Assembly (NCBI RefSeq): GCF_001428505.1
Contig: NZ_LMHU01000006.1
Span: forward strand, 62,712-126,711
Length of the DNA stretch: 64,000 nucleotides
DNA from: Terrabacter sp. Root181
GTDB taxonomy: Bacteria; Actinomycetota; Actinomycetes; Actinomycetales; Dermatophilaceae
Reading direction: 5' to 3'
The position numbers were made by a program, and so were the translations under genes. Below the pieces are notes generated by a model. It was not told the origin of the DNA. It made no database searches and saw only the letters and a program-made list of their open reading frames with translations. Shown one piece after another: positions 3-64,000 of this stretch. The stretch's first letter is position 1. Each line of letters opens with the position of its first letter.

Positions 3-680
3 GGCACCCTGCCGCCGACCTACCCCCACCTCGTCGCCTTCCCGGTCCAGATGGTCGCCATGAGCGGCGACCGCTTCCCGCTCCCGCTGCTCGGTGCCGT
101 CCACGTCGAGAACCGCATCGACGTCGTCCGTTCCGTCGACGTCGACGAGCCGCTCGACGTCTCCGTGTGGGCTCAGGACCTCCGGCCGCACCGCCGCGGG
201 CGTCAGGTCGACCTCGTGTCCGAGGTGACGGTGCGTGGCGAGGCAGTGTGGCGCGGGGTGAGCACCTACCTCTCGCGCGGCGCCGAGCACCCCGAGGCCG
301 AGCCGTCCGAGCCGCCGTCCACGGACCCGCTCGCAGCCGTCACGGCGGGGCCGCTGTGGCGCCTCGGCGAAGGCACCGGACGCGCGTATGCCGCCGTGTC
401 GGGCGACTGGAACCCCATCCACGTCCACGCCCTCACGGCCAGGCCGTTCGGCTTCCCGAGCGCCATCGCCCACGGGATGTACTCCTACGCAAGGGTGCTC
501 GCCTCACTCGGGCCCAGACTGCCGGAGGCCGGGCTCACCAGCCACGTGTGGTTCCGCAAGCCGGTGCGCCTCCCGTCGTCCGTCCGCCTGCGCACGGCGT
601 TCGAGGCGTCACGCACGCTCTCGGTCCTCGAGGACGCGAAGGGCGAGATCGGGCACGCCGTCGTCGAGAACACCTGGTGA
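3..680 (+). CDS. MaoC-like hot-dog dehydratase, 5' partial
   Basis: The reading frame is already open at the window edge, so the N-terminus is missing. The visible part starts in a segment (YPHLVAFPVQMVAMS) typical of the first hot-dog half of MaoC/FAS-type acyl-CoA dehydratases. The second half carries the family signature GDWNPIHVH followed by AIAHGMYSYARVL, where the Asp and His of the hydratase pocket lie. Proteins of this kind hydrate or dehydrate enoyl-thioesters in the cytoplasm. The substrate cannot be told from sequence. An internal ATG at 51 is not the true start, because homologous sequence continues upstream of it. It ends before a bidirectional terminator shared with the convergent GNAT genes. 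Confidence 0.75.
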   Translation, partial: GTLPPTYPHLVAFPVQMVAMSGDRFPLPLLGAVHVENRIDVVRSVDVDEPLDVSVWAQDLRPHRRGRQVDLVSEVTVRGEAVWRGVSTYLSRGAEHPEAEPSEPPSTDPLAAVTAGPLWRLGEGTGRAYAAVSGDWNPIHVHALTARPFGFPSAIAHGMYSYARVLASLGPRLPEAGLTSHVWFRKPVRLPSSVRLRTAFEASRTLSVLEDAKGEIGHAVVENTW

Positions 681-723
681 CCCTCCCACCCGTCGACAGG
701 ACGTGAACGGCCGTCGGTCCGCG

Positions 724-763
724 GTCGAGAGGCCACTCCTCGTGACGAGGGGTGGCCCTCGAC
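724..763. terminator. Bidirectional terminator between convergent genes
   Basis: A stem of about 19 bp (left arm 724-743, right arm 745-763) with one bulged A, one wobble pair and an almost closed loop. It lies between a plus-strand and a minus-strand stop codon, so it can serve both. Confidence 0.65.
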
Positions 764-775
764 GGTCCGAGCAGG

Positions 776-1741
776 TCAGCGCTCCGGCAGGTCGAGCGGG
801 CGCGCCAGCCGGTGGACGCCGCTCCGCACGACGTAGCCGAGCTCCCGGTTGATCCGGCGGATCCCGTGGTTGTGCTCCTCGTTGCTCGTGCGGCTGGAGG
901 TGGCCCCGGCTGCGCGGGCGGCGAGGTGGGCCCGCTGCTTGACCAGGACCATCAGGCCGCGACCCCGGAAGGTCGGGTCCACACCGCTGTAGGCGATCGA
1001 AAGCGTCGCGTCGTCGACCCCGCCGAAGGTGATGGCGGCCGGCGTCCCGTCGACCCGGGCGACGACGCCGATCGGGGTCTCGCCCGTGGCGATGAGGCTG
1101 CGCAGCTTGGCCAGGTCGAACACCCACCCCTGCGCGGCCTCGGGGTTCGTCTGGCTCGCCAGCAGCATCCGCTCCACCGCGTCCGCGTCGTCGAAGACGA
1201 GGTCGGGCACCTCGTGCAACGTCACGCCTGGCGGCGGCTCCGGCTCGGGCAGGGCGGCGAGGTCGAGGACCGACTCGATCGAGTGCTCCGCGACCTCGAA
1301 CCCCCAGTGGTGCGCGACCGCGAGCGAGCGGGGGTCGTCGTCGAAGGTGCCGCCGACGAGGTGGGTCGTCCCCTCGGGGAGCTGCTCCAGCAGGCTCGCC
1401 CTCAACGCTCGCCCCACACCCCGCCCCTCGTGCTCCCGGGCGACGATGACCCGCAGGAACGACCGACCTGACGGTGCGAAGCGCGGGTGCGCCGTGAACC
1501 CCACTCCCAGCATGACCCCGTGCCGGTCGACCGCCTCGACGGCGACGAGCCCGTCGAAGAGCTCCGGCGAGGTGAACATCCATCCGACGTCGGTCCGGGT
1601 GACGTGCACCTGACGGGCACAGACGAGATCCAGGGCCTCCTCCTGTCGTCGGGCCGGAAGGGGAGCGGTGCGCAGCTCCGAGGGGTCGGGTGGCACCGCC
1701 GACCACCGGCCCTCGAACCCGACGACCTCTACGGGTTCCAT
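776..1741 (-). CDS. Tandem-domain GNAT acetyltransferase
   Basis: This 321-aa protein has two GNAT folds in series. The first acetyl-CoA loop reads [16 protein letters not shown] around residue 120 and the second [18 protein letters not shown] around residue 260. This two-domain layout is like mycothiol synthase MshD, but I see no specific reason to assign that activity. The substrate is unknown. The ATG at 1741 overlaps the stop of the upstream GNAT gene by one base (TGATG), so the two are probably translationally coupled. Function is inferred from motifs only. Confidence 0.72.
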
Positions 1742-4851: not shown

Positions 4852-4870
4852 GCCCGCCACCGTGCGGCGT

Positions 4871-4918
4871 ATGCCGCCGGGCCGGGTCACCCTCCCCGGT
4901 GATCCCGCTCGGCGGCAT
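4871..4918 (+). terminator. thrS terminator hairpin 1
   Basis: Arms 4871-4891 and 4898-4918 form about 20 pairs, with two G-U wobbles and one C-C mismatch, closing a 6-nt loop. The GTATGCCG octamer at 4869-4876 begins the left arm. There is no U-tract, as is common in high-GC actinobacteria. Confidence 0.7.
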
Positions 4919-4926
4919 TCGTCCGT

Positions 4927-5037: not shown

Positions 5038-8000
5038 ATGCGCACCGTGCTCCGCTCGCTCGGCACCGCCGTCCTCGCCGCCGCCGTCCTCGGCCCCCTC
5101 CTGCCCTCCGGGGCACCACCCGCCCAGGCGGCCGCTCCGCCCGAGAGACTCGTCGACGCGGTCAACCCGTTCATCGGCACCCAGGACAACGGCAACACCT
5201 TCCCGGGTGCCAGCGCCCCGTTCGGCATGGTCCAGGTGAGTCCGGACACCGGGGGAGAGGGCGGCTACGACCACTCCCAGACCGCCATCTACGGCTTCAG
5301 CCAGACCCACCTCTCGGGCGTGGGGTGCCCCGTCGTCGGCGAGCTGCCGGTGATGCCGACGACGGGCGCCGTGACGACCGTCGACCCGAGCCGCTACCGG
5401 TCCACCTACAGCCACTCCGACGAGGAGGCCGAACCCGGCTACTACCGCGTCGGGCTGCCGACGCACGGCGTGCAGGCCGAGGTGACGGCCACCGACCGCA
5501 CTGGCTGGCAGCGCTACACCTTCCCGGCGGACAAGCAGGCCAACGTCCTGCTCAACACGGGCAAGGCCAACATGCGGGTCTTCGACTCCGAGGTGCACGT
5601 CGTCGGCGACCGGGTCGTGGAGGGCCGCATCCACGACGGCAACTTCTGCGCCGGCAAGGACGAGCACACGGTCTGGTTCCGGGCCGAGTTCGACCGGCCC
5701 TTCAGCTCGTTCGGCACGTGGAGCGGGTCGACGCTGACGTCGGGAGCCCGGGACGCCTCGACGAAAGACGGCGGCAACGGCGCCGCGGTCACCTTCCCGA
5801 CCGGCACGACGTCCGTGACGATGAAGGTCGCGCTCAGCTACACCGGCCCGGACGGTGCCCGCGCCAACCTGACGAGCGAGTCCGGTGACTCGTTCGACTT
5901 CGACGCCACCCGCGCCGGTCTCGCGCAGCGATGGGAGTCCGAGCTCGGCAAGGCGCGGATCACCGGTGGCGCGCCGGAGCGGCGGACGGCGTACTACACC
6001 GCGCTCTACCACTCGCTCATGCACCCGAACCTCGCGTCGGACGTCGACGGTCGCTACCACGGCTGGGACGGGGCCGACCACGTCGCGCAGGGCTACACGC
6101 CCCGCCAGAACTTCTCGCTGTGGGACACCTACCGTCCGCAGAACCAGCTCCTCGAGATCCTCGCCCCCGACGTCGCGCGCGACTCGTACCTCTCCGTGCT
6201 CGCGATCGGGCGCGAGGGCGGGTGGCTGCCGCGCTGGGCCCTCGTCAACAGCGAGACCAACATCATGACCGGTGACCCCGTGACTCCCTTCCTCGTCGAG
6301 GGCTGGAGCAAGGGCTTCCTCGCAGGACACGAGGCGGAGGCGTACGCCCTGCTCAAGCAGAACGCGACCGAGCGGCCGCCGGCCGACAGCCAGTACAACG
6401 GCCGCTCCGGTCAGCACTGGTACGAGAAGCTCGGCTACATCCCGTTCGGCCTCGACGTCGGCACCGACTGCGTCTCCCACGGCGGCGACAACGACTGCGC
6501 CCACCCGGCCTCCGCGACGATGGAGTACGCCGCCGCGGACGCGTCCCTCGCCCTCATGGCCAAGGGGCTGGGCCACACGTCCGACGCGGCCATGCTGACC
6601 GAGCGCAGCGGCTGGTACCGCAACCTTTGGGACGCCGGCACCCAGACGTTCCGTCCGCGCCTGGCCGACGGCACCTGGCTCGACCCGTACGACCCGGTCG
6701 AGGCGTCGCACGCCTTCCACGAGGGCGGGTCCTACCAGTACCAGTGGCTCGTCCCGCAGGATCCGGCCGGCCTCACGCACCTCATGGGTGGCCGGGCGGC
6801 GACCGAGAAGCGCCTCGACGACTTCTTCGCCTACCCGAAGCTGCTCGCCGACCCGGCCGGCACCGCGCGGACCGACTGGATCGAGGCGACGTACGCCTAC
6901 TACAGCAAGCCCACCTACAACCCGAACAACGAGCCCGACCTCCTCGCGCCGTACGTCTACGCGTGGGTCCAGCAGCCGGCGAAGATCGCGACCGTGGCCC
7001 GCGCCGCCTTCACCCTCTTCACCGCCGGACCGGACGGTATGACCGGCAACGACGACCTCGGCACGATGTCGGCGTGGTACGTCTTCTCGTCGTGGGGGCT
7101 CTACCCGACCATGAGCGGCTCGAACGTCTTCGTCGTCAACTCACCGCAGTTCGAGCGCGTCGACATCGACGTGGCGACGCCGACGTCGGTGCAGACCGGC
7201 CAGGGCGGGTCGCTGACGATCACCGCCCCCGGCGTCACCGACGAGCGGCGCTACGTCCAGACGCTGACCGTCGACGGAACCCGCACCACGAAGAGCTGGG
7301 TCGGTTGGGACGCCCTGCGCCGGGGCGGGTCGGTCGCCCACACGGTGGGGACGACGCCGAGCCGGTGGGGCACGACGCCCGCCGACGTGCCGCCGTCCGC
7401 CGTGCAGGCCGGCCGGGACCCGAGGCTGTCGCTCTCGATGGCCGCGCGACCGAGCCCCGTGGTCGTCCCGACCGGCGCGCGTGAGGCACGCCTGGCCGTC
7501 GACCTCGTGGGTCAGGCGCCGATGAGCCTGCCGGTCGACGTGTCCGTCACGACTCCCTCCGGGTGGTCGGCCGTCGTGGGCTCGGGTGACGACGGTGCCG
7601 CGGTGCTCCACAGCAACGGGGTCCCCGCGAGCACCACGGTGCCCGTGACCCTCCGGCTTCCCGCCGGCCTCGGGGTCGGCGACCACGAGGTGGTCGTGAC
7701 CGCCACGGCGCCCGGTCTCGAGCCCGTGACGCGGACCGTGCCCGTCCAGGTGCGCGAGGCCCTCGACTGCGTCGGCGACGCACCCGGCTGCGCGCTCGAC
7801 CTGGGGCCTGCCCGCAACCACGACGGCACCGCGACCGTCGCCGCGCCCAGCGAGGGCAACTTCGACGGCAGCGGCTGGAGCTACGACGCCGCACTGCTCC
7901 CGGTGCCGGGCCCGTGGGTGCATGACGGCATCACGTATGCCGCGCCGGTCACCTCGGGCACGACGCCCAACTTCGTCGAGGGGCGGGGCCAGACATTGCT

Positions 8001-10119: not shown

Positions 10120-11114
10120 CCGACCTCGCGCGCCGGGCCACCGACACCGTCAGCGTGCTCGGCTTCAAGCTCGGCTGGTCCGTCGTACGCGCCCTCCCGG
10201 AGCGGGCGGCATACGCCCTCTTCGACCGGGTGGCCGACATCGTGGTCCGACGGGGCGGCAAGGGCATCGAGCGGCTGCGCTCGAACTACCGCCGCGTCCG
10301 CCCCGAGCTGTCCGAGGGCGACCTCGACGTCCTCGTGCGCCAGGGGATGCGCTCCTACATGCGCTACTACTGCGAGGCCTTCCGGCTCCCGTCGCTCACG
10401 CGCGCGCAGATCGACGGCGCGGTCGTCGTGCGCGGCGACGCCGAGATCCGTGAGCTGTGCGCCAGCGGCGAGGCGGGCGTCGTGTTCGTCGGCCACCTGG
10501 GCAACTTCGACCTCGCCGCCGCCTGGTCCGCCGGCAGCCTCATGCCGGTGACGACCGTCGCCGAGCGGCTCAAGCCCGAGGAGGTCTTCCAGGAGTTCGT
10601 GGCCTTCCGGCGCAGCATCGACATGGACATCATCCCGCTCACGGGCGGCGACGACCCGTTCCACGGCCTGCTCGACGCGGCCCGCGACGGCGGGCGGCTC
10701 ATCGCCCTCGCCGCCGACCGCGACCTCACCAACGGCGGTGTCGAGGTCGACCTGCTCGGCCACCGCGCCCGGATGGCCAAGGGGCCGGCCGTGCTGTCGC
10801 TCATGACCGGGGCACCGCTCTACGCCGCCCGGATCTGGTACGAACCCGCCCCGCCCGGCACGGGACTCGGCGGTCACCGCACGGTCATCGAGTTCAGCGG
10901 CCGGCTCGTGCCACGGGTCGAGGGCACGACAGCCGTGCGGGCCGCCGACCTCATCCAGCAGTGCGCCGACCACGTCGCCGTCGCCATCCGCGAGCACACG
11001 TCGAGCTGGCACATGCTGCAGCGGGTCTTCGTCGACGACCTCGACGCTCCCGCGGCTCCCTCGGCCGTCGCCGCCGCGCAGCCGTCGACCCCGACGACGG
11101 GGCGCACGCCGTGA
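10116..11114 (+). CDS. patA: PIM acyltransferase (PatA/HtrB-type)
   Basis: 332 aa. The lysophospholipid/HtrB-type acyltransferase signature H-x4-D is seen in VGHLGNFDLAA (about residue 128). A second conserved region, ALAADRDLTNGGVEVDL, follows near residue 200. In actinobacteria this enzyme acylates the 6-position of the first mannose of PIM1/PIM2 on the cytoplasmic membrane face. Assignment rests on the family and on the strict pgsA-patA-pimA gene order. The GTG at 10116 and the stop at 11112-11114 overlap their neighbours by 4 nt, so the three genes are one translationally coupled unit. Confidence 0.88.
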   Translation: MTDLARRATDTVSVLGFKLGWSVVRALPERAAYALFDRVADIVVRRGGKGIERLRSNYRRVRPELSEGDLDVLVRQGMRSYMRYYCEAFRLPSLTRAQIDGAVVVRGDAEIRELCASGEAGVVFVGHLGNFDLAAAWSAGSLMPVTTVAERLKPEEVFQEFVAFRRSIDMDIIPLTGGDDPFHGLLDAARDGGRLIALAADRDLTNGGVEVDLLGHRARMAKGPAVLSLMTGAPLYAARIWYEPAPPGTGLGGHRTVIEFSGRLVPRVEGTTAVRAADLIQQCADHVAVAIREHTSSWHMLQRVFVDDLDAPAAPSAVAAAQPSTPTTGRTP

Positions 11115-12283
11115 GGATCGGGATCGTCTGCCCGTACTCGTTCGACGTCCCGGGCGGGGTGCAGTTCCACGTGCGTGACCTCGCCGAGTACCTCATCGGG
11201 CAGGGCCACGACGTGTCCGTGCTCGCCCCGGCCGACAGCGAGACCGAGCTGCCCGACTACGTCACGTCTGCGGGACGGGCCACCGCCGTGCGCTACAACG
11301 GCTCCGTCGCCCGCCTCAACTTCGGCCCCGTCACGGCCTCGAAGGTCGGCAAGTGGCTCGATGCCGGCGAGTTCGACGTCCTGCACCTGCACGAGCCCGT
11401 CACGCCCAGTGTCAGCGTGCTCGCCCTCATGGCGGCCGAAGGACCGATCGTGGCCACCTTCCACACCTCGATGCTGCGGTCGCGGACGATGCAGACGGCA
11501 TACCCCATCATCCGGCCGAGCCTCGAGAAGATCGCCGGGCGCATCGCCGTGAGCGAGGACGCCAGGCGCACCGTCACGACCCACGTCGGCGGCGACGCGG
11601 TCGTCATCCCCAACGGTGTCTACGTCGACCGGTTCGCGAGCGCTCCACGACGGTCCGCCTGGATCGGCACACCGGCCTCGCCGACCATCGCCTTCCTTGG
11701 GCGGATGGGCGAGCCGCGCAAGGGACTCCCCGTGCTCGCCACCGCGCTGCCCGAGATCCTTCGCTCGGTCCCGGGACTGCGGGTCCTCGTGGCCGGACCC
11801 GGTGATCCCCACGAGGTCACCGAGGGCTGGCCGCCCGAGGTCGTGGCCGCCTGCGAGTTCCTCGGCTCGGTCTCCGACGACGACAAGGCGTCCCTGCTCG
11901 CGTCCGTCGACGTCTACGTCGCGCCCAACACCGGTGGCGAGAGCTTCGGCATCATCCTCATCGAGGCCATGAGCGCCGGCGCCTGCGTGCTCGCCAGCGA
12001 CCTCTCGGCCTTCTCGCGGGTGCTCGACGGCGGCAAGGCGGGTGCGATGTTCGCCAACGAGCAGCCCGACGACCTCGCCCGCACGCTCGTCGACCTGCTG
12101 CGACGCCCCGAGCGCCGCGCCGAGCTCGCCGCCGCCGGGCAGCGCCGCGCCCGGCTCTTCGACTGGTCGGTCGTCGCCGACGAGATCCTCGCCGTCTACG
12201 AGACGGTCATCGAAGGTCGTGCGGCCGCGCACCGGGAGCCGCACGGACGCTGGAACCGCTTCCTGCGTGGGGGTGCCCGGTGA
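11111..12283 (+). CDS. pimA: Phosphatidylinositol mannosyltransferase PimA
   Basis: 390-aa GT4/GT-B glycosyltransferase. The N-terminal glycine loop PGGVQFHVRDLAEYL (about 14-28), the hinge segment and the C-terminal nucleotide-sugar site (APNTGGESFGIILIEAMSAG, about 275-294) with the E-x7-E pair are present. It transfers the first mannose from GDP-mannose to phosphatidylinositol at the inner membrane face. The gene order supports PimA over the related PimB/C proteins. GTG 11111 overlaps the patA stop (GTGA), and its own stop overlaps the next gene the same way. Confidence 0.92.
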   Translation: MRIGIVCPYSFDVPGGVQFHVRDLAEYLIGQGHDVSVLAPADSETELPDYVTSAGRATAVRYNGSVARLNFGPVTASKVGKWLDAGEFDVLHLHEPVTPSVSVLALMAAEGPIVATFHTSMLRSRTMQTAYPIIRPSLEKIAGRIAVSEDARRTVTTHVGGDAVVIPNGVYVDRFASAPRRSAWIGTPASPTIAFLGRMGEPRKGLPVLATALPEILRSVPGLRVLVAGPGDPHEVTEGWPPEVVAACEFLGSVSDDDKASLLASVDVYVAPNTGGESFGIILIEAMSAGACVLASDLSAFSRVLDGGKAGAMFANEQPDDLARTLVDLLRRPERRAELAAAGQRRARLFDWSVVADEILAVYETVIEGRAAAHREPHGRWNRFLRGGAR

Positions 12284-13896: not shown

Positions 13897-13937
13897 GACG
13901 TATGCCGCCGTGCCCTCCGGGCGCGGCGGCACACGTC
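13897..13937 (+). terminator. pdxS terminator
   Basis: Stem of about 17 pairs (13897-13915 / 13919-13937) with a 3-nt loop, one A-C mismatch and one wobble. The octamer GTATGCCG (13900-13907) lies in the left arm. Confidence 0.7.
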
Positions 13938-14094: not shown

Positions 14095-15108
14095 GTGAGC
14101 GCTTCCGGAGCCGAGCTGTCGCGGTCCTACTTCGAGCAGGTCGTCGAACCGATCGTGCGCGGGCGCTGGCCCGGGATGCCCTGTGCCGCGGCGCGCCTCG
14201 GGAGCGGGTCCGACGTCCTCGGGCTCGACGACGCGATATCGCGCGACCACGACTGGGGGCTCCGGCTCAACCTCCTCGTCCCGGCGGAGGCGACGACCGC
14301 GGTCGACGAGCACCTGGACGCCCACCTCCCCGTGGCGTTCGCGGGACACCCGACGCGCTTCGCGACGACCTGGGACCCCGTCGCCCGACACCGGGTGCAG
14401 GTCGAGACGGCGCGCGACCTCGCCGTGTCGCGACTCGGCGTCGACCCCACCCGCGACCTCGACGTCGACGACTGGCTGTCGCTCACGGGCCAGGCCGTCC
14501 TCGAGGTCACCGGCGGCGACGTCTTCGCCGACGACGCGGGCGAGCTGGACGGCATACGGCAGCGGCTCGAGTGGTATCCCGACGACGTGTGGCGGCACGT
14601 CGTCGCGACGGACTGGGCCCGGCTGTCGCAGGAGCTGCCCTTCGTCGGCCGGACGGCGGAGCGCGGCGACGAGCTCGGCTCGCGGGTCGTGGCCGCACGG
14701 CTCACCGGCATCGTCCTGCACCTCGGCCACCTGCTGGAGCGCCGGTGGCCGCCCTACGCCAAGTGGCTGGGCACGAGCTTCGCCGGGCTGCCCCGGGCAG
14801 GGGTTGCGCTCGCGCCGCTCGTCCGGGCGCTGGCGGCTGCCGGCTGGCGGCAGCGGCAGGATGGTCTCGTCGAGGCACTGCGCCTGCTCGCCGGGGTCCA
14901 GGGCGAGGCCGGACTGCCGACCGTCCACGACCCGGTCGAGCCCTTCTGGGACCGGCCCTACCGCGGGGTGCGCGGCGCCGTGGTCGAGGTCCTCGAGGCG
15001 AGCGTCAGCGACCCGGTCGTGCGGGCGCTGCCGCGCGGTGTCGGGTCGGCCGAGCAGCGGAGCGACAACGTCGATGTGCTGACCCACCGAGGTCGACCGA
15101 TCGAGTGA
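14095..15108 (+). CDS. DUF4037 nucleotidyltransferase-like protein
   Basis: 337 aa from the GTG at 14095. An ATG at 14038 is possible but lies inside the long hairpin. The N-terminal part reads ARLGSGSDVLGLDDAISRDHDWG (split motif: GSGSDVLG and DHDWG, residues about 30-55), the minimal-nucleotidyltransferase pattern with two acidic residues seen in DUF4037 proteins. The C-terminal half is helical. Its substrate is unknown. It converges on kynU and both interrupt the pdxS-pdxT pair. It contains a rare ATA isoleucine codon (14554) inside a CGGCATAC octamer. Confidence 0.7.
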   Translation: MSASGAELSRSYFEQVVEPIVRGRWPGMPCAAARLGSGSDVLGLDDAISRDHDWGLRLNLLVPAEATTAVDEHLDAHLPVAFAGHPTRFATTWDPVARHRVQVETARDLAVSRLGVDPTRDLDVDDWLSLTGQAVLEVTGGDVFADDAGELDGIRQRLEWYPDDVWRHVVATDWARLSQELPFVGRTAERGDELGSRVVAARLTGIVLHLGHLLERRWPPYAKWLGTSFAGLPRAGVALAPLVRALAAAGWRQRQDGLVEALRLLAGVQGEAGLPTVHDPVEPFWDRPYRGVRGAVVEVLEASVSDPVVRALPRGVGSAEQRSDNVDVLTHRGRPIE

Positions 15109-15174: not shown

Positions 15175-16428
15175 TCAGGTGACGGCGCCGCGCTCGGCGA
15201 ACTCGGGGCGCTCGAACTCGCGCCCGTCGAGGACCTCCTTGACGTGGACCGCGGCCCGCACCGCGTCCACGTGGGTGACGTAGAGCGGTGCGAAGCCGAG
15301 CCGGATGATGTCCGGCTCGCGGAAGTCCCCGATGACACCCCGGGCGATGAGGGCCTGCACGACGGCGAACGCCTGGGGGTGGCGCAGCGACACCTGGGAC
15401 CCGCGGCGCTCCGGCTCGCGGGGCGTCGCCAGCGGGAGGTCGACCCCGAGCGCGTCGAGGGCGTCGATGAACGTGCCGGTCACGGAGAGCGAAGCCGCCC
15501 GCACGTCGGCGGGGGAGAGGCCGTCGTATGCCGTGAGCGCAGCCTCGAGGGCGAGCACCGAGAGCAGCGGCGGCGTGCCGACGCGGGCCCGGGTGATGCC
15601 GGGCGCGGGCTCGTAGTCCGGACGCATCTCGAACGGTCGGGCGTGGCCCTGCCAGCCGGTCAGCGGCTGCTCGAAGTCGTCCTGGTGCCGGGTCGCGACG
15701 TAGAGGAAGGCGGGGGCGCCGGGGCCGCCGTTGAGGTACTTGTAGCCGCACCCGACCGCGAGGTCGGCGCCCCCCTCGTCGAGCTCTACCGCGATCACGC
15801 CGGCGGAGTGGCAGAGGTCCCAGCAGGCGAGGGCGCCTACCGCGTGCGCTGCCTCGGTGATGGCGACGAGGTCCCACAGCTCGCCCGTGCGGTAGTCGAC
15901 GCTGGAGTAGGAGGCGAGGGCCAGGGCGTCGCCGACCTCGGCGATGGCGGCCGCGGCGTCACGGGGGTGCACCCGGCGGACCTCGAGTCCCGCCAGGGCT
16001 GCCGCCGACTCGGTCATGTAGAGGTCGGTCGGGAAGGAGTCGGGGTCGGTGAGCACCACCGTGCGGCCGGGACGCAGGCGTCCGGCCCCGACGACGGCCT
16101 TGAAGAGGTTCACCGACGTCGAGTCGGTCACGACCACCTGACCCGGGGCGGCCCCGACGAGACGGCCGACGAGGTCACCCACGCGGGTCTGCGCGCCCCA
16201 CCAGTCGGCCTCGTTCCACGAACGGATGAGCCGCTCGCCCCACTGCCGGTGCATCACGTCGTCGACGACGGCCGGCACGGCGCTCGGCAGGGCGCCGAGG
16301 GAGTTGCCGTCGAGATAGATCACGCCATCGGGGAGGGTGAAGAGGTCTCGGGTGCCGTGGAGCGGCGAGGCGGCATCGGCCTGCTCGGCGCGGGCGGTCA
16401 GGGCGTCGTGGATGTGCACCGTCGTCAT
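15175..16428 (-). CDS. kynU: Kynureninase
   Basis: 417-aa PLP enzyme of fold type I. It splits kynurenine (or 3-hydroxykynurenine) into anthranilate (or 3-hydroxyanthranilate) and alanine. Landmarks: [11 protein letters not shown] (about 38-48), [12 protein letters not shown], substrate/PLP segment [10 protein letters not shown], the aspartate in [13 protein letters not shown] (about 205), and the lysine that binds PLP in [19 protein letters not shown] (about 230). No other kynurenine-pathway gene is nearby, so it is a lone gene. It sits between the two PLP-synthase genes, reading the opposite way, and is divergent from pdxT. Confidence 0.93.
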
Positions 16429-18156: not shown

Positions 18157-18191
18157 ATCGACCAGAGCCCCACGCCCCAGGGAGGTATGCC

Positions 18192-18848
18192 GTGCGCGTC
18201 CTCGCGGTCGACCCCGGGCTCACGCGGTGCGGCGTCGGCGTCGTCGACGGCGTCCCGGGACGCAAGCTCTCCCTCGTCGAGGTGGGCGTCATCCGCACCC
18301 CGTCCGGAGACCCGACTCCCAAGCGCCTCGTCGCCGTCGAGGACGAGATGCGGCAGTGGTTCGCTCGGCACCGCCCCGAGGCCGTGGCCATCGAGCGCGT
18401 CTTCGCCGACACCAACGTGTCGACCGTCATGGGCACCGCGCAGGTGACGGGGATCGTCATGATCATCGCCGAGCGACTCGGGCTGCCCGTCACGCTCCAC
18501 ACGCCCACCGAGGTCAAGGCGGCGGTGAGCGGGAGCGGGCGCGCCGACAAGGCACAGGTGACGACGATGGTGACCCGTCTGCTCGGGCTCGACACCCCGC
18601 CGAAGCCGGCCGACGCCGCCGACGCCCTCGCCCTCGCGATCTGCCACGTCTGGCGCGGTGGCACCCAGAGCCGGCTCGAGGAGGCACGCCTCGAGGTGCT
18701 CGCCCGCACCGGGAACCGGGGGAGCGGCATACCCCGTCGGGTCCCGCCCGGCGCCGCCCCACCCGTTCGGCGCCTGCGCGCCGCGTCCACCCAGCCGACC
18801 CGCACCGGTCAGCCCACCCGACCCCACCCTGGAGCCCAGCCCCGATGA
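18192..18848 (+). CDS. ruvC: Holliday junction resolvase RuvC
   Basis: 218 aa. Endonuclease that cuts Holliday junctions made mobile by RuvAB. The catalytic acidic residues can be placed: Asp in [11 protein letters not shown] (7), Glu in VAIERVFAD (about 68), and the Asp pair in [12 protein letters not shown] (about 140). The C-terminal 45 residues are a Pro/Arg-rich tail not needed for catalysis, making it longer than the 173-aa E. coli protein. The GTG at 18192 follows GGAGG with 7 nt spacing. The GTATGCCG octamer fills this spacing exactly and includes the G of the start. It overlaps ruvA by 4 nt. Confidence 0.95.
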
Positions 18849-24315: not shown

Positions 24316-24840
24316 GTGAGCCAGATCAGTGACCTCGTCGCGAGCAAGCTGCGCGACATCCCGGACTTCCCCAAGCCCGGGGTCGTCTTCAAGGACTTCA
24401 CCCCGCTCATCGCCGACGGCGCCGCCCTGGGTGAGCTCGTCCGGGACATCGCCCAGCGGTATGCCGGTCAGGTCGACGTCGTCGTCGGCATCGAGGCCCG
24501 CGGCTTCATCCTCGGCGCGGCCGTCGCCTACGAGCTCGGCCTCGGCATGGTCCCGGTGCGCAAGGCCGGCAAGCTGCCGGGGGAGACCCTCAAGGAGTCC
24601 TACGCGCTCGAGTACGGCACGGCCGAGATCGAGGTGCACACCGACGCCTTCGAGCCCGGCCAGCGCGTGCTCGTCCTCGACGACGTGCTCGCCACGGGCG
24701 GCACCGCCGAGGCGTGCGCGCAGCTCGTCGAGCGGGCCGGGGCCACGGTCGCCGCGATCGAGGTCGTCCTCGAGCTGGCCTTCCTCGAGGGACGCAGCCG
24801 GCTCGCGGACCGGCCGGTCAACGCCATCCTCACCGTGTGA
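24316..24840 (+). CDS. apt: Adenine phosphoribosyltransferase
   Basis: 174 aa. Salvages adenine with PRPP to AMP. Family landmarks: IPDFPKPGVVFKDFTPL (about 15-31), GIEARGFILGAAVAYELG, and the PRPP-binding loop VLVLDDVLATGGTAEA (about 117-132) with two acidic residues. Start GTG 24316 follows CAGGAG. It lies directly before relA, an order seen in many bacteria that links purine salvage to the (p)ppGpp system. Confidence 0.95.
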   Translation: MSQISDLVASKLRDIPDFPKPGVVFKDFTPLIADGAALGELVRDIAQRYAGQVDVVVGIEARGFILGAAVAYELGLGMVPVRKAGKLPGETLKESYALEYGTAEIEVHTDAFEPGQRVLVLDDVLATGGTAEACAQLVERAGATVAAIEVVLELAFLEGRSRLADRPVNAILTV

Positions 24841-30342: not shown

Positions 30343-30386
30343 CGGCATACCGGAGGAGTCCCGCCCACCTCGGAGAGCGTATGCCG
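30343..30386. repeat. Inverted pair of GTATGCCG octamers
   Basis: CGGCATAC at 30343-30350 and GTATGCCG at 30379-30386 face each other across 28 nt in the gap between two divergent genes. They could form a hairpin or be a paired protein site. The rest of this 226-nt gap holds the promoter at 30410 and nothing else I recognise. Confidence 0.6.
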
Positions 30387-43592: not shown

Positions 43593-44427
43593 CTGCCTGC
43601 GGGCGGCAGCCGGACCCTCGGGGGCGGCTCGGCCACCTGCGCGGTCAGCCACCCCTCCGCAGGCACGCGCAGCATCACCGCGGTCTATGACGGGTCGCCC
43701 GACCACCTCACCTCCACCTCGGCGGCCGTCAGCCAGGTCGTGGGGGGCCGCCACGAGGGCGGGCCTGACGACCTCGGCGACGACGGTCCGGACGGGCCAG
43801 GGTGTCACCTACACCGCCACGGTGGCCGCCGCCGCGCCCGGCGGGGGAGTGCCGACCGGCACTGTCACGTTCAGGGACGGCACGACGGTGATCGGCTGCT
43901 CGGCGGGCTCCCAGACCCTGAACGCCTCGGGGATCGCCACCTGCACGACGACCTTCCCGACTCCCGGCTCAGGATCGGTCACGGCGACGTATGCCGGCAC
44001 CGCCAGCCACACGGCGTCGACGTCCACGACGGTGACCCAGGGCGTCGTCAACGCACAGGCAGTCGGGCTCGTCTTCTCCGGGGCCACACTCAACGGCACC
44101 TCGGTCACGCCCAGCTGCAGGGGCGCCGTCGGGTCGTCGTACGGCTGCACCGTCTCGGGCGGCGGCAACAACGCCGTCGTGGTGGCGAACGTCGGGTTCG
44201 GCAACAGTGCGGGCGGGGCGGTGTCCTACAGCGGCGCGACGGAGACGCTCTCCTGGTCCGCCACCGGCAAGAACACGGGGAGCGGGACCGTCACCGTGGC
44301 CCCGAACGCCACCGCCTCGACCGGCACCGTCTCGGCGACGAAGAACGGCGTGAACGCGGCGGCCGTCACGGTGAGGTTCACCGAGTCCGGTGGCGCGACG
44401 TGGACGGCCGTCCTGACCGTCTCCTGA
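43593..44427 (+). pseudogene. Ig-like repeat protein remnant, frameshifted
   Basis: Two Ig-like repeats of the bacterial surface-protein type are visible in different frames. The first (SATCAVSHPSAGTRSITAVY with DGSPDHLTSTSAAVSQVV) runs to a six-G run at 43742-43747. The sequence then continues sensibly only in the next frame (TGQGVTYTATV, GTVTFRDGTTVIGCSAGSQ, then SITATYAG-like SVTATYAGTASHTAS) to the stop at 44425. Removing one G would join them. No start codon, signal peptide or ribosome site is found upstream, where the tRNA-Pro terminator lies, so the 5' end is missing as well. The C-terminal 115 residues are Gly/Thr/Ser-rich and unrecognised. The 96 nt between 43497 and 43592 hold nothing recognisable. 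Confidence 0.7.
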
Positions 44428-46980: not shown

Positions 46981-47589
46981 GTGGAGGTCGAGAGAGCGGG
47001 GGAGCGCGAGCACGTCGTGACGGAGCGCCTGCTGACGATCCCCAACGTCCTGTCGGTGCTGCGCCTGCTCGGCGTGCCCGTCTTCCTCTGGGCCATCGTC
47101 TCGGAGCGCGACGGGCTGGCCTTCCTGCTCCTGCTGTTCTCCGGGGTCACCGACTACCTCGACGGCAAGATCGCCCGGCGGTTCAACATGGAGAGCCGCC
47201 TGGGTCAGTTCCTCGACCCCATCGCCGACCGGCTCTACATCCTCACGACCCTCGTCGGGCTCATGTGGCGCGACATCATCCCGGTCTGGCTCGTCGCCGT
47301 GCTCCTCGCACGCGAGGTCGTCATGGCACTGATGCTGCTCTACCTGCGCACCAAGGGGCAGGTGGGCCTGCCGGTGCACTTCGTCGGCAAGGCCGCGACG
47401 TTCAACCTCCTCTACGCCTTCCCGCTCCTGCTGCTCGCGCAGCGCGACGACTGGCTCGGCGACCTCGCCCGCCCCATCGGCTGGGGCTTCGCGTGGTGGG
47501 GCGTCGTCCTCTACTGGCTCGCCGCCGTGCTGTATGCCGTCCACGCCCGTCTCGTGCTGGCGCAGCGTCCCCGGGTGGTGACCCCGTGA
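46981..47589 (+). CDS. CDP-alcohol phosphatidyltransferase
   Basis: 202 aa, several membrane helices. The full D-x2-DG-x2-AR-x8-G-x3-D-x3-D motif is present (DYLDGKIARRFNMESRLG, then QFLDPIADR, about 59-85). It transfers a phosphatidyl group from CDP-diacylglycerol to glycerol-3-phosphate or phosphatidylglycerol. The PgsA2/cardiolipin-synthase position before the DUF881-sbp-DUF881 genes is conserved in actinobacteria, but the acceptor alcohol cannot be fixed from sequence. It is coupled to the DUF881 gene by a 4-nt overlap. Confidence 0.88.
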   Translation: MEVERAGEREHVVTERLLTIPNVLSVLRLLGVPVFLWAIVSERDGLAFLLLLFSGVTDYLDGKIARRFNMESRLGQFLDPIADRLYILTTLVGLMWRDIIPVWLVAVLLAREVVMALMLLYLRTKGQVGLPVHFVGKAATFNLLYAFPLLLLAQRDDWLGDLARPIGWGFAWWGVVLYWLAAVLYAVHARLVLAQRPRVVTP

Positions 47590-53679: not shown

Positions 53680-56607
53680 ATGTCGATCGACCAGCTCGTG
53701 CCCGTCACCACCGGAACGTCCACCGAGACGGTGATGGCCGACTTCGTGAGCCGTCACGTCGGCCCCGCCGGCGACGACGTCCGCCACATGCTGGAGGTCG
53801 TGGGCCAGCCGAGCCTCGACGCGATGTGCGACCGCGCCATCCCCGGGGCCATCCGGTCCGAGTCGCCGCTGCGGATCGAGGCGGCCGCCAGTGAGAGTGC
53901 CGTCATCGAGGAGCTGCGCGGGTTCGCCTCGCGCAACACGGTGCTCACCTCGCTCATCGGGCTCGGCTACTACGGCACCGTGACCCCGCCGGTCGTGCGT
54001 CGCAACGTCCTCGAGAACCCCGCCTGGTACACCGCCTACACGCCGTACCAGCCCGAGATCTCCCAGGGCCGGCTCGAGGCCCTGCTCAACTTCCAGACGG
54101 TCGTCACCGACCTCACCGGGCTCGACGTGGCGGGCTCCTCGCTCCTCGACGAGTCGACGGCGGCCGCCGAGGCAGTGTCGCTCATGCGGCGCGCCAGCAA
54201 GGCCGCCTCCGACGCCGTCGTGCTCGTCGACGAGCGGCTCTTCCCGCAGACCATCGCCGTCATGCGCACGCGTGCCGAGGCGCTCGGGCTGCCCCTCGTC
54301 GTCGCCGATCTGCGCGGCGTGACCGATACCGACTCCCTCGCCGCGGCCGCCGGAGGCCAGGCCGTCGTCGGCGCGATGGTGCAGTACCCCGACGCCACCG
54401 GCGAGCTCGTCGACTGGACACCGCTGACCGCGGCGGTCCACGAGGCCAAGGGCCTCGTCACGGCGTGCGCCGACCTGCTCGCACTGACCCTGGCTGCCGC
54501 CCCCGGGGAGTGGGGCGCCGACATCGCCGTCGGCAGCGCCCAGCGGTTCGGCGTCCCGATGGGCTTCGGCGGCCCGCACGCCGGCTACATGGCCGTGCAC
54601 CGCGGCCTGGAGCGCCAGATCCCGGGTCGCCTCGTCGGGGTGTCCGTCGACGCCGAGGGTCACCAGGCGTACCGTCTCGCCCTCCAGACGCGTGAGCAGC
54701 ACATCCGCCGCGAGAAGGCGACGTCCAACATCTGCACCGCGCAGGTGCTCCTCGCCGTCATGGCGAGCATGTATGCCGTGTGGCACGGTCCCGCGGGCCT
54801 CGTGGCCATCGCGCGGCGCGTGGGTGGTCTGACGGCCACGCTGCGCGGTGCACTCGTCGACGGTGGCCTCGACGTCGAGACGACGTCGTTCTTCGACACG
54901 CTCACGGTCGTGGTGCCGGGTCGCGCCGACGAGGTCACGACCGCGTTCGCCGACCGAGGCATCAACGTGTGGCGCGTCGACGCCGACCGCGTGTCGCTCA
55001 GTCTCGACGAGACCTCTACTCCCGCAACGGTGCTCGCGGTTCTCGACGGCTTCGGGGTCGACCCGGCCGACGATGCCGAGGCCACGTTCGGCGCCCGCGT
55101 CGCGAACGGCATACCCGAGGCCCTGGCGCGCACGTCCGAGTTCCTCACCCACCCGGTCTTCCACGCGCACCACTCCGAGACGGCGATGCTGCGCTACCTG
55201 CGCCGCCTCTCCGACCGTGACTTCGCGCTCGACCGCGGCATGATCCCGCTCGGGTCGTGCACGATGAAGCTCAACGCCACCACGGAGATGGAGGCGGTCA
55301 CCTGGCCCGAGTTCGCCAACCTCCACCCGTTCGCGCCGGCGGAGCAGACCGTGGGCATCCGCGCCCTCATCGACGACCTCTCGGCTTGGCTCTGCGAGAT
55401 CACCGGCTACGACGCGGTGTCGCTCCAGCCCAACGCCGGATCCCAGGGTGAGTTCGCCGGCCTGCTCGCCATCCACGCCTACCACCAGGCCCGCGGAGAG
55501 GGACATCGGCGGGTCTGCCTGATCCCGGCGAGTGCCCACGGCACCAACGCCGCCTCGGCCGTCATGGCCGGCCTCAAGGTCGTCGTCGTCAAGACGGCCG
55601 CCGGCGGCACCGTCGACATGGACGACCTCCGGGCCAAGGTCGAGGCGCACCGCGACGACCTCGCCGCGATCATGGTCACCTACCCGTCGACCCACGGCGT
55701 CTACGAGGACACCATCTCCGAGCTGTGCGAGCTCGTCCACGAGGCAGGCGGCCAGGTCTACGTCGACGGAGCCAACCTCAACGCGCTCGTCGGGCTCGCG
55801 CAGCCGGGCACGTTCGGCGCCGACGTCAGCCACCTCAACCTGCACAAGACGTTCTGCATCCCGCACGGCGGCGGTGGCCCCGGCGTGGGGCCGGTCGCGG
55901 TCCGCGCACACCTCGCGCCGCACCTGCCCAACCACCCGCTCGCCGCGGAGGCCGGCCCCGAGACCGGTGTCGGTCCCGTGTCGGGCGCCCCCTACGGCTC
56001 GGCGAGCATCCTGCCGATCTCGTGGGCCTACGTCCGCCTCATGGGGGGCGAGGGCCTGCGGCACGCGACGCAGATGGCCGTCCTCGGCGCCAACTACATC
56101 GCGGCCCGGCTGCGCGAGCACTACCCGGTGCTCTACTCCGGACACGACGACCTCGTCGCCCACGAGTGCATCCTCGACGTCCGGCAGATCACGGCCGAGA
56201 CCGGCGTCACCGTCGACGACATCGCCAAGCGCCTCGTCGACTACGGCTTCCACGCCCCGACGATGAGCTTCCCGGTCGCCGGCACGCTCATGGTCGAGCC
56301 GACCGAGTCGGAGAACCTCTACGAGCTCGACCGCTTCTGCGACGCGATGATCGCGATCCGCGGCGAGATCGAGGCGATCCGTGCCGGCGAGGTCGCGGTG
56401 GGCGACAGCATGCTGCGGCACGCACCGCACACGGCCCTCAACATCGCGGGGGAGTGGGACCACCCCTACGAGCGCACCGAGGCCGCCTTCCCCGTGGGGA
56501 TCAACGCCGCCGACAAGTACTGGCCGCCGGTGAGCCGCATCGACGGCGCCTACGGCGACCGCAACCTCGTCTGCTCGTGCCCTCCGCCGGAGGCCTTCGA
56601 GGGCTGA
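53680..56607 (+). CDS. gcvP: Glycine dehydrogenase (decarboxylating), P protein
   Basis: 975 aa, the single-chain form. PLP-dependent decarboxylation of glycine and transfer of the aminomethyl group to GcvH. N-terminal motif [19 protein letters not shown] (about 88-106), C-terminal PLP-lysine loop [19 protein letters not shown] (about 722-740) and [18 protein letters not shown]. Start ATG 53680, with CAGGAG just upstream. Controlled by the glycine riboswitch. An in-gene ATA codon at 55111 occurs only because of a CGGCATAC octamer. Confidence 0.97.
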
Positions 56608-58238: not shown

Positions 58239-58270
58239 CGTATGCCGTGTGTCCGGGGACACGGCATACG
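58239..58270. terminator. Bidirectional terminator built from GTATGCCG pair
   Basis: Perfect 12-bp arms CGTATGCCGTGT (58239-58250) and ACACGGCATACG (58259-58270). Each arm contains the octamer. It lies between two convergent genes. Confidence 0.75.
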
Positions 58271-58978: not shown

Positions 58979-58985
58979 CGGGTGC

Positions 58986-59858: not shown

Positions 59859-59859
59859 C

Positions 59860-60399: not shown

Positions 60400-60409
60400 C
60401 GCGGTCGCG

Positions 60410-61165: not shown

Positions 61166-61177
61166 CCGCACAGGATG

Positions 61178-62083: not shown

Positions 62084-62297
62084 TTCTTCCATCCCCTCGT
62101 GGTCCCGGGCCACCCTCCCATGGTGACCCGTCAGAGATCGTGATGCACGCACGATTGGAAAAGCTCGGGGACGACGAGATCTTTCTCGTGTGCCGCCGAC
62201 CCGGCTCGACGGCATACGACACCGTGGTGCCCGGTTGAGCCCGGGAGGAGCGGGAATGGGGGGGGCCGGGAATGGGGGAGCGGGGGCCGACGTTCGA

Positions 62298-62315
62298 TAT
62301 GATTGAACAGTCAAT
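62298..62315 (+). promoter_or_regulatory. AT-rich promoter with overlapping operator
   Basis: TATGAT (62298-62303) is a near-consensus -10. It runs into a short inverted repeat ATTGA-ACAG-TCAAT (62302-62315) that would cover the transcription start. A TetR- or MarR-type repressor site is plausible. No matching regulator gene is in the window. The 252-nt gap has no other recognisable feature except a lone CGGCATAC at 62210. Confidence 0.5.
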
Positions 62316-62335
62316 TACAGGAGGAGCTGGGACAC

Positions 62336-63451
62336 ATGCAGTTCGGGATCTTCACCGTCGGTGACGTCACGACGGACCCCACCACGGGGCACACGCCGAC
62401 CGAGCACGAGCGGATCAAGGCCACCGTCGCGATCGCCAGGAAGGCCGAGGAGGTCGGGCTCGACGTCTTCGCCACCGGCGAGCACCACAACCCGCCGTTC
62501 GCCGCGCCGGCCAACCCGCCGGTGCTGCTCGCCAACATCGCCGCGCAGACCGAGCGGATCATCCTCTCGACCTCGACGACCCTCATCACGACGAACGACC
62601 CCGTGCGCATCGCCCAGGACTACGCCTACCTCCAGCACCTCTCCGACGGCCGCATGGACGTCATGATGGGCCGCGGCAACACCGGCCCGGTCTATCCGTG
62701 GTTCGGCAAGGACATCCGCGACGGCATCCCGCTCGCCATCGAGAACTACGCCCTGCTCCACCGCCTGTGGCGCGAGGACGTCGTCGACTGGCAGGGGAAG
62801 TACCGCACCCCGCTCCAGGGCTTCACCTCGACGCCCCGCCCGCTCGACGGCATCCCGCCGTTCGTCTGGCACGGCTCGATCCGCAGCCCCGAGATCGCCG
62901 AGCAGGCGGCGTACTACGGCGACGGCTTCTTCTCCAACCACATCTTCTGGCCGGCCAGCCACACGAGGCAGATGGTCCAGCTCTACCGCCGCCGGTTCGA
63001 GCACTACGGCCACGGCAGCGCCGACCAGGCGGTCGTCGGCCTCGGCGGACAGGTCTTCATGCGCAAGAACAGCCAGGACGCCGTCCGCGAGTTCCGTCCG
63101 TACTTCGACAACGCCCCCGTCTACGGCCACGGCCCGTCGCTCGAGGAGTTCACGAGCCAGACGCCGCTCACCGTCGGCAGCCCGCAGGAGGTCATCGAGC
63201 GGACGCTCGGCTTCCGCGAGTACGCCGGCGACTACCAGCGCCAGCTCTGGCTGCTCGACCACGCCGGACTGCCGCTCAAGACCGTGCTCGAGCAGCTCGA
63301 CATCCTCGGCGAGGAGGTCGTACCCGTCCTGCGCCAGGAGTTCGCCGCCCTCAAGCCGGCCCACGTGCCCGACGCCCCGACCCACGCGAGCCGTCTCGCG
63401 GCGGACACCACCGAGCCCACCACCGAGCCCACCCTGGAGGTGACGAAGTGA
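62336..63451 (+). CDS. Luciferase-like flavin-dependent monooxygenase
   Basis: 371 aa. TIM-barrel LLM family: start MQFGIFTVGDVTTDP, then GLDVFATGEHHNPPFAAPAN (about 41-60) and LSTSTTLITTNDPVRIAQDY (about 80-99) with the LSDGRMDVMMGRG phosphate loop (about 102). These are typical of FMN-using subgroups. The ATG 62336 has GGAGGAG ahead. The paired reductase gene overlaps by 4 nt, so this is a two-component monooxygenase. Substrate unknown. Confidence 0.9.
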   Translation: MQFGIFTVGDVTTDPTTGHTPTEHERIKATVAIARKAEEVGLDVFATGEHHNPPFAAPANPPVLLANIAAQTERIILSTSTTLITTNDPVRIAQDYAYLQHLSDGRMDVMMGRGNTGPVYPWFGKDIRDGIPLAIENYALLHRLWREDVVDWQGKYRTPLQGFTSTPRPLDGIPPFVWHGSIRSPEIAEQAAYYGDGFFSNHIFWPASHTRQMVQLYRRRFEHYGHGSADQAVVGLGGQVFMRKNSQDAVREFRPYFDNAPVYGHGPSLEEFTSQTPLTVGSPQEVIERTLGFREYAGDYQRQLWLLDHAGLPLKTVLEQLDILGEEVVPVLRQEFAALKPAHVPDAPTHASRLAADTTEPTTEPTLEVTK

Positions 63452-64000
63452 CCGCGTTCCACCTCGCCGTCATCACGGCCGGCGTGACCCAGCCGTCCTC
63501 GACGCGACTGCTCGCCGACCGCCTCACCGAGGCCACGGTCCGCGCGCTCGCGCCCCGCGAGGTCGTCGTCGAGGTCGTCGACGTGCGCGACGTCGCGCAC
63601 GACCTGACGAACAACGTCCTCACCGGTTTCGCGTCGCCCGAGCTGCAGGTGCGGCTCGACGCGATCAGCGAGGCGGACGCCGTCGTCGTCGCGACCCCGG
63701 TGTATGCCGCGTCGTACAGCGGCCTGTTCAAGATGCTCGTCGACGTGCTCCCGATGGACGCCCTCCGCGACACCCCCGTGCTGCTCGGCGCGACCGGTGG
63801 CACGGCCCGCCACTCACTCGCGCTCGACCACGCGCTGCGCCCGCTCTTCGCGCACCTCGGTGCCCTCGTGGCCCCGGTGGCGGTCTTCGCCGCCAGCGAG
63901 GACTGGGGCAGCGTCGACGCCGGCCGGCTCGGCGATCGGATCGAGCGTGCCGGCGCGGCCTTCGCGGGCCTCGTGAGCGGCGCGCCGAGGGCCGCCCGGG
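63448..64000 (+). CDS. NAD(P)H-dependent FMN reductase, 3' partial
   Basis: 184 codons remain in the window. Flavodoxin-like FMN reductase: VITAGVTQPSSTRLLADRL (about 8-26) is the phosphate loop, VVVATPVYAASYSGLFKMLVD (split at 80-100) the conserved core, ATGGTARHSLALDHALRPLF the later family motif. It would supply reduced FMN to the monooxygenase upstream. Start GTG 63448 overlaps that gene's stop. The C-terminus is beyond the window edge. Confidence 0.9.
   Translation, partial: MTAFHLAVITAGVTQPSSTRLLADRLTEATVRALAPREVVVEVVDVRDVAHDLTNNVLTGFASPELQVRLDAISEADAVVVATPVYAASYSGLFKMLVDVLPMDALRDTPVLLGATGGTARHSLALDHALRPLFAHLGALVAPVAVFAASEDWGSVDAGRLGDRIERAGAAFAGLVSGAPRAAR

Follow-up and report, generated by a model that had tools for sequence, protein, structure and literature searches.

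Two families with DNA-uptake sequences, the Pasteurellaceae and the Neisseriaceae, are named by a 2016 review (PMC5031613). The DNA uptake sequence (DUS) of Neisseriaceae occurs as thousands of copies of a short word, with dialects by genus and some genera without it, and the genome of Simonsiella muelleri carries two dialects in nearly equal numbers (PMC3630211). The uptake signal sequence (USS) of Pasteurellaceae is a short dispersed word that originates through point mutations and is under-represented both in coding regions and in recently acquired DNA; its inverted pairs at gene ends act as terminators (PMC7811141). In the actinobacterium Micrococcus luteus, transformation needs two tad clusters, with ComEA/ComEC (PMC4322843). 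In this study, we analyzed the octamer GTATGCCG as a candidate uptake sequence in Terrabacter sp. Root181 and its relatives, starting from a 64-kb stretch of the Root181 genome (contig NZ_LMHU01000006.1, positions 62,712 to 126,711), referred to below as the window.

The window contained 27 exact copies of GTATGCCG, 15 on the plus and 12 on the minus strand, at exactly the positions and strands that an earlier note on this DNA had listed by eye. The expected number was 0.80 (standard deviation 0.85, largest value 3) in 100 dinucleotide shuffles and 1.25 under a third-order Markov model, so the strong over-representation claimed in that note was borne out. No comparably frequent word was found among the 24 one-base neighbors of GTATGCCG in the window, the commonest being GGATGCCG (10 vs. 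6.8 expected) and GTACGCCG (7 vs. 3.4 expected). The Root181 genome (4.94 Mb, 12 contigs) held 2231 copies, 1135 forward and 1096 reverse, at a density of 0.45 per kb, and the control word, GTATGCCG read backwards, occurred 250 times (124 and 126). The genome-wide count proposed as a check thus favored the observation, and copy numbers in the hundreds to thousands are those of uptake sequences. In a 386-kb sample, composed of the window and 322 kb of other Root181 stretches, GTATGCCG and its shifted form TATGCCGT showed the strongest over-representation of all octamers with 20 or more occurrences, and TATGCCG was preceded by G in 156 of 164 cases. The base following the octamer was T in 14 of the 27 window copies and in half of 155 sites in the sample.

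In the same sample, called genes contained 113 copies, another 38 lay between genes, and 5 spanned gene borders; genes were called by a simple script that left about 19% of the sample uncalled. Coding copies were mainly read as xxG TAT GCC G (63 of 113) or xCG GCA TAC (36 of 113), and ten gave the rare ATA codon. As many as 63 of 151 TAT codons and 10 of 16 ATA codons were inside the motif. We then used a synonymous null, in which codons were shuffled among positions of the same amino acid so that protein and codon usage were kept. The Root181 sample had 112 coding copies vs. 6.4 under this null, genome G087 of the same family had 139 vs. 10.6, and three Knoellia-type loci (L002, L011, L055) had 41 vs. 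1.2. Codon usage was therefore ruled out as the cause of the GTATGCCG excess, and the proposal that selection acts on DNA rather than protein was supported by both the TAT and ATA codons and the shuffling. The one-step precursor GTACGCCG was depleted under the same null (7 vs. 31.9 in G087; 34 vs. 47 in Root181).

The distribution of the octamer was examined in 186 genomes (53 genera) of the family to which Terrabacter, Knoellia, and Intrasporangium belong. All eight same-genus relatives of Root181 had 1423 to 2358 copies, and this comparison with sister species, together with the family survey, also favored the earlier observation. Counts over the 186 genomes were bimodal, most genomes having either a background of 7 to 111 copies or 341 to 4724, and forward and reverse counts were about equal; in-between counts (149 to 361) were mostly from genomes that use other dialects. 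The octamer was also lacking within genera that otherwise carry it: G122 had 50 copies compared with 394 to 1901 in the other 30 genomes of genus g42, and G016 had 37 compared with 1251 to 1660 in its four congeners. Among named loci, GTATGCCG occurred 21 times in 22 kb of Knoellia koreensis, 14 times in Knoellia sp. Soil729, 18 times in Janibacter sp. HTCC2649, and 10 times in Flexivirga, and it was absent from Phycicoccus avicenniae, Mobilicoccus, and Janibacter massiliensis; Cellulomonas and Streptomyces had 0 or 1. Judged by eye from the table, no genome exceeded 0.1 copies per kb among 362 genomes from 19 other families of the order, although a few of these reached about three times their control word. 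These results indicate that abundance of GTATGCCG is a trait of one family within its order.

Genera poor in GTATGCCG often carried one- or two-letter variants such as GGATGCCG, GTATGCGG, and GTACG[ACG]CG (GTACGVCG). GGATGCCG occurred 39 times in 40 kb of G178 vs. 3.6 expected, was raised in g9 (both genomes, 3816 and 3838 copies), g15 (4/4), and g51 (3949), and was weakly raised in 2 of 12 g47 genomes. Two words stood together in g15, where G044 had 1217 GTATGCCG and 2195 GGATGCCG and G045 had 1189 and 2099; their congeners G042 and G043 had mainly GGATGCCG. GTATGCGG was found 19 times in G033 (g13) vs. 1.1 expected, and Flexivirga had GTATGCCG, GTATGGCG, and GTATGACG in similar measure. GTACG[CG]CG (GTACGSCG) was high in g3, g6, g7, g35, two of four g5 genomes, and G092 of g33, whereas G093 and G094 of g33 carried GTATGCCG. 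In g44, G152 and G155 were richer in GTACGSCG and poorer in GTATGCCG than nine sisters, and over 163 genomes the densities of these two words were negatively correlated (rank correlation -0.51). The synonymous null supported the sampled variants, G022 being the weakest case: GGATGCCG was found 32 vs. 4.9 and 37 vs. 6.8 times, GTATGCGG 17 vs. 1.0, GTATGGCG 9 vs. 0.4, and GTACGGCG 92 vs. 26. Switching was visible at single sites in orthologous alignments: GTACGVCG stood in G092 at 8 of the 15 aligned positions where G094 has GTATGCCG, and of 23 sites aligned from G153 to G152, 6 read GTACGVCG and 6 were unchanged. Dialects among related genera are a further property of uptake sequences.

GTACGSCG itself was widely raised over 275 genomes of the class, partly through codon use. 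Its excess over the codon null was 1.3 to 1.7 fold in Streptomyces and Cellulomonas loci and about fourfold in one 22-kb Kribbella locus. Because it is raised in many actinomycetes, it was rejected as a family-specific word, and the case for this dialect depends on the codon null and on contrasts between congeners. The GTACGSCG/GTACGVCG form may be older and wider than the family. Other octamers were looked at in 31 of 80 named loci, and outside the family a related word was raised only in Kribbella; unrelated words were raised in some loci, among them Occultella (CACCAGCC, 25 vs. 3.9) and L052 (GAAGCCGA, 13 vs. 1.2). In the class-wide survey, GTACGSCG ranged from about 1600 to 6300 copies per genome within one genus (e.g., g184 of family f45), and therefore a similar drive may act outside the family. 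In G092 (L119-L121, L163-L165, L248-L252), GTACGVCG often overlapped its own reverse complement on GTAC, in pairs 4 bases apart that form 12-base near-palindromes. No comparably strong word emerged from the sampled stretches of G009, G016, G046, G061, G104, G122, and G183, barring terminator-like words in G061. These were CGAAGGGG/CCCCTTCG, strongly over-represented in G061 of g27 (46 vs. 7.5 in 80 kb; L124, L125, L172, L173) and in G100 of g36 (26 vs. 3.9 in 40 kb; L232, L233). The CCCCTTCG-type words of both genera are perhaps terminator stems.

The geometry of the copies was then compared with that of uptake sequences. The strands were equal in a 200-kb Root181 block (48/48), and in the complete genome G087, sampled in 20 stretches around the chromosome, there were 115 plus and 127 minus copies with no strong polarity, the most uneven arcs, picked post hoc, being 57 to 43. 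Near-equal strands without strong replication polarity are usual for uptake sequences. Even spacing was rejected, as the spacing was random-like and no more even than chance (coefficient of variation 0.92 vs. simulated 0.87 to 1.19). Neighbors within 100 bp in G087 were inverted, facing each other, in 21 of 21 cases, several of them forming long hairpins with a spacing of 21 to 27 bp. Inverted close pairs made up 5 of 5 in Knoellia-type loci, 10 of 13 in seven other genomes, and 44 of 50 over four GTATGCCG sets, so that the terminator-like inverted pairs of uptake sequences were found in the GTATGCCG sets and not in the GGATGCCG sets. The density between genes was higher than within genes (0.98 vs. 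0.47 per kb in G087; 0.55 vs. 0.36 in Root181), and Markov enrichment in G087 was 25.9 between and 23.1 within genes. Flanks of different copies were unrelated save for the T at base 9 and a weak 3-base codon periodicity; a dispersed repeat or mobile element was therefore rejected. The three mobile stretches seen were poor in copies, with 3 in about 50 kb: L138, 20 kb carrying conjugation and integrase genes, L092, 20 kb of a low-GC contig that carries IS110 genes, and a 9.9-kb serine-recombinase element had one each.

Conservation of sites was measured in orthologous alignments of window positions 14-38 kb. Terrabacter L003, at 88% identity, kept 6 of 9 sites compared with 758 of 1451 words of the same composition. 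More distant sequences kept 1 of 5 (L002), 3 of 6 (L011), and 3 of 5 (L055) in Knoellia-type loci, 1 of 3 in Ornithinibacter L006, 0 of 3 in Flexivirga L004, 0 of 2 in the Intrasporangium metagenome-assembled genome L001, and 0 of 7 in the non-bearer Phycicoccus L005; at distances beyond L003, control words were kept at 18 to 36%. Many orthologous sites differed by one or two bases, which is the turnover by point mutation seen in uptake sequences.

We next considered the transformation machinery. Genomes were classed as motif-bearing at 0.1 GTATGCCG, 0.45 GGATGCCG, or 0.45 GTACGSCG per kb, cut-offs chosen after seeing the tables; all four g13 genomes were classed as bearing, GTATGCGG having been sampled in one of them, and the 23 of 186 genomes below 90% completeness were excluded from tests that use this class. 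An open frame of Root181 matched ComEA (TIGR00426, 55.5 bits; cut-off 53.1), and another matched ComEC with 169.8 bits (cut-off 190) and passed the N-terminal domain model. ComEA matches were present in 179 of 186 genomes, 97 of them above the curated cut-off, and ComEA was accordingly rejected as a discriminating gene. A PilT-type ATPase was found in only 4 of 186 genomes, so type IVa pili were rejected as the machinery, and with PilT nearly absent the role would fall to a Tad pilus. At least two T2SSE-type ATPases were present in 110 of 110 motif-bearing and 44 of 53 motif-less genomes, or in 33 of 33 and 10 of 15 by genus. PilT and T2SSE were counted from the 10 best candidates per genome, and scoring all candidates gave equal counts in 13 of 13 genomes. 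Three of the nine genomes with fewer than two (G046, G009, and G104) were examined with all candidates scored, and each had a single ATPase whose score placed it with a kind that the other genomes also have; a second tad locus therefore seems to be missing in them. The two-ATPase association is thus necessary-looking, not sufficient.

Taking these findings together, we propose that GTATGCCG is a DNA-uptake (self-recognition) sequence, spread by biased natural transformation through ComEA/ComEC and Tad pili, and we assign this reading a probability of roughly 0.55. The uptake sequences of Neisseriaceae and Pasteurellaceae, and not Chi, are matched by the combination of many copies, balanced strands, close pairs that face each other, sites that turn over by point mutation, dialects linked by intermediate genomes, and few copies in the mobile stretches seen. 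Among the roles listed in the earlier note (uptake signal, Chi-like, methylase, binding, or segregation site), uptake received most support, and RecBCD-dependent Chi was contradicted, as RecC is missing in 8 of 9 genomes of the genus and the strands are balanced; the same balance contradicted oriented segregation. In the proposed mechanism, a surface or pilus-borne competence protein would prefer motif-carrying DNA, which a Tad (Flp) pilus would pull in and ComEA would hand through ComEC. Recombination would then copy motif-bearing alleles into the population, so the word would accumulate where its cost is low, such as at wobble positions, in gaps between genes, and in hairpin stems. A change in receptor preference would lead to slow rewriting of the genome to a new dialect.

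Several observations weigh against this proposal. Both ComEC and ComEA of Root181 were below NCBI equivalog or subfamily cut-offs, ComEA did not separate motif-bearing from motif-less genomes, and the PilT, ComEA, and T2SSE profiles singled out no receptor candidate over the 186 genomes. In Root181, the tadA of one tad locus was split by an inserted element. G016, G122, and G183 had no detected motif yet possessed a tad locus like that of bearers and two or more T2SSE-type ATPases, and all 15 g27 genomes with at least 90% completeness had 2 to 6 T2SSE ATPases and none of the tested motifs. The ATPase association counts related genomes, uses cut-offs set post hoc, and leaves out the 23 less complete genomes, which include four one-ATPase bearers (G056, G059, G109, and G159; 73-84% complete). 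Close pairs were inverted in 8 of 11 cases in Root181 and 6 of 13 in GGATGCCG genomes. Markov enrichment in Root181 was not higher between genes (14.5 fold) than within them (19.5 fold), and no special density was seen there between convergent genes; the bias towards non-coding DNA suggested earlier thus stood as a density and failed against the Markov expectation. Conservation of sites between species was at or little above that of control words, which argues that density, not place, is kept. L091, a stretch of ordinary-looking genes, also had one copy in 20 kb. In the site-switching test, losses towards GTAC also tracked the favored Tyr codon, and the controls were small (GTAT to GTAC in 2 of 22 cases outside the motif vs. 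18 of 38 in it).

Further features of the tad loci were observed. The element within tadA of Root181 spans about 10 kb (G000:C8, about 349400-359470; L258 from 19401, L204 to about 9470), with a recombinase-like gene at one end, identified by eye, and a CcrB-like gene inside. The N-terminal part of the split gene corresponded to residues 8-303 and the C-terminal part to residues 301-412 of TadA from an intact relative. Its position recalls prophages placed in competence genes (comK). Names of prfB, ftsE, and the serine recombinase at the tad locus were given mostly by eye. A protein of about 1400 amino acids was encoded divergently beside tadA (L205:5734-9960, L206:10932-15308, L204:10632-14921, L211:4850-9166), and the one tested, from L205, matched EssC/EccC and FHA families; no such gene was called beside tadA in G122 (L213).

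Other explanations of the octamer were weighed against the same data. An artefact of codon pairs, composition, or peptides in a high-GC genome could draw on the fact that most coding copies encode Tyr-Ala or Ala-Tyr and that GTACGSCG, built of favored codons, is common in many actinomycetes. For GTATGCCG it is hardly credible, as the excess persisted with protein and codon usage held constant, Markov enrichment was of similar size between genes, and counts differed up to about 190 fold within one genus (3681 in G093 vs. 19 in G092); it may still account for the weaker GTACGSCG excess of the Streptomyces and Cellulomonas loci. If GTATGCCG were instead a methyltransferase target, methylation could drive the word mutationally, for example by deamination of GTACGCCG to GTATGCCG. 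The depletion of GTACGCCG where GTATGCCG is rich and the negative correlation with GTACGSCG would agree with this. We consider it very unlikely, since the two words together reached 146 vs. 42.5 in G087 and 146 vs. 53.4 in Root181; because their sum is far above expectation, conversion of GTACGCCG cannot supply the excess, and C-to-T conversion alone was rejected as too small. Moreover, GGATGCCG and GTATGCGG are not products of GTACGCCG deamination, and the hairpin pairs would require another reason.

A binding site for an abundant chromosomal protein, such as a nucleoid organizer or a factor in segregation or replication whose sites must be dispersed but need no orientation, would account for copies on both strands and for a density that is held while sites turn over. 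This seems unlikely, because relatives such as G122 in g42 lack the motif for no obvious cause and the spacing is no more even than random; oriented origin-to-terminus segregation signals of the type of FtsK-orienting polar sequences (KOPS) were rejected by the strand balance. A Chi-like hotspot of recombination that a helicase-nuclease (RecBCD, AddAB, or AdnAB) would read in break repair, with dialects that follow changes of the enzyme, is also quite unlikely. GTATGCCG does resemble Chi in being an exact, non-palindromic octamer that is abundant in the chromosome and rare in the three mobile stretches, and Chi is likewise described as an octamer with a few one-base variants among Proteobacteria. 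However, RecC, the subunit by which these enzymes were surveyed, was absent from 8 of the 9 same-genus genomes including Root181, all nine motif-bearing, and present in 15 of 16 motif-less g27 genomes. By genome it was found in 47 of 110 bearers and 33 of 53 non-bearers, and counted by genus it was commoner without the motif (10 of 15) than with it (7 of 33). Chi of E. coli is reported to lie almost only on the leading strand, whereas GTATGCCG had no strong polarity. RecBCD-dependent Chi was therefore rejected by the absence of RecC and the strand balance. Inverted hairpin pairs are not a known trait of Chi. As an observation in its own right, the presence of RecC varied across the family and even between congeners (1 of 9 genomes in g1; G016 but none of the four others of its genus), and it was more frequent in genomes that lack the motif.

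Within the window, twelve copies without further features lay inside called genes, on the plus strand at 386..393, 7935..7942, 15526..15533, 24459..24466, 34337..34344, 37846..37853, 43989..43996, and 47532..47539 and on the minus strand at 10207..10214, 11496..11503, 33025..33032, and 38873..38880. Other coding copies were in relA (25188..25195, minus), whose product has 98% identity to RelA of Terrabacter sp. MAHUQ-38, in xerD (35148..35155, minus), and in gcvP (54771..54778, plus; 55107..55114, minus). The gcvP minus copy and those in called genes at 14550..14557 and 18725..18732 (both minus) contain a rare ATA codon, and arithmetic on the called genes placed these codons, at 14554, 18729, and 55111, in frame as predicted. 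The plus copy at 63702..63709 was within a gene called in one of two gene-calling passes. Eight copies had been described as non-coding; we found seven of the 27 between genes and one, at 18185..18192 (plus), crossing a predicted gene start, and the accompanying figure of 8% non-coding DNA was unconfirmed, about 19% being uncalled. thrS (2866-4851) and pdxS (12934-13872) were confirmed, and intergenic plus copies began 18 bases past the end of the former (4869..4876) and 28 bases past that of the latter (13900..13907). The intergenic copies at 30343..30350 (minus) and 30379..30386 (plus) were inverted with respect to each other, and a further intergenic copy was at 62210..62217 (minus). The facing pair noted earlier, two exact matches at 58240..58247 (plus, left arm) and 58262..58269 (minus, right arm), folded into a hairpin with a 12-bp stem (58239..58270) between convergent genes. 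A 56-base stretch at this pair gave -30 kcal/mol (z -2.5), and 4 of 200 shuffles were as good.

In a wider form of the uptake reading, uptake sequences would have arisen independently a third time, in this family of Gram-positive actinobacteria, and, to our knowledge, this would be the first such system outside Proteobacteria. Tad pili would serve in reading the word, no fewer than four dialects would act as mating barriers between genera of the family, and the GTACGVCG form may extend to other actinomycetes such as Kribbella. We regard this wider form as tentative, at somewhat less than even odds. No account of uptake sequences in Actinobacteria or of natural transformation in Intrasporangiaceae was found in a search judged partly by titles, with preprints and most subscription journals outside its scope, and the papers containing the octamer string, among the matches listed, concerned other subjects by title. 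If the proposal is true, a third origin in soil Gram-positives would mean that self-recognition in transformation evolves repeatedly, the family would offer gains, losses, and dialect switches over many genera for the study of receptor-genome co-evolution, and many uncharacterized soil actinobacteria would be naturally transformable. Should the octamer have another role, it would remain an abundant and fast-evolving signal across the genome without an assigned reader.

Among known systems, Chi of E. coli and other Proteobacteria is similarly an over-represented octamer of core DNA with few variants; unlike GTATGCCG, it is polar with replication and dependent on RecBCD. HIP1 of cyanobacteria is an abundant palindromic octamer with lineage-specific presence, and a palindrome of this type was rejected, as GTATGCCG is not palindromic. 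The DUS of Neisseriaceae, read by the ComP receptor, is similar in its thousands of copies, dialects by genus, a genome with two dialects, and genera without the word. Inverted DUS copies are used as terminators. The present candidate system differs from DUS in its sequence, its Gram-positive, high-GC hosts, and the presence of PilT in only 4 of 186 genomes. With the USS of Pasteurellaceae, GTATGCCG shares a dispersed word, origin by point mutation, lower coding density, inverted pairs, and perhaps scarcity in newly acquired DNA; unlike USS, it has no flanking AT-rich tracts, only the T at base 9 and the weak 3-base periodicity. For M. luteus no uptake sequence is mentioned, the term "uptake sequence" being absent from the text of PMC4322843 and of PMC12849477. 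M. luteus has ComEA, ComEC, and two tad clusters, and the motif-bearing genomes resemble it in having ComEA matches together with at least two T2SSE-type ATPases.

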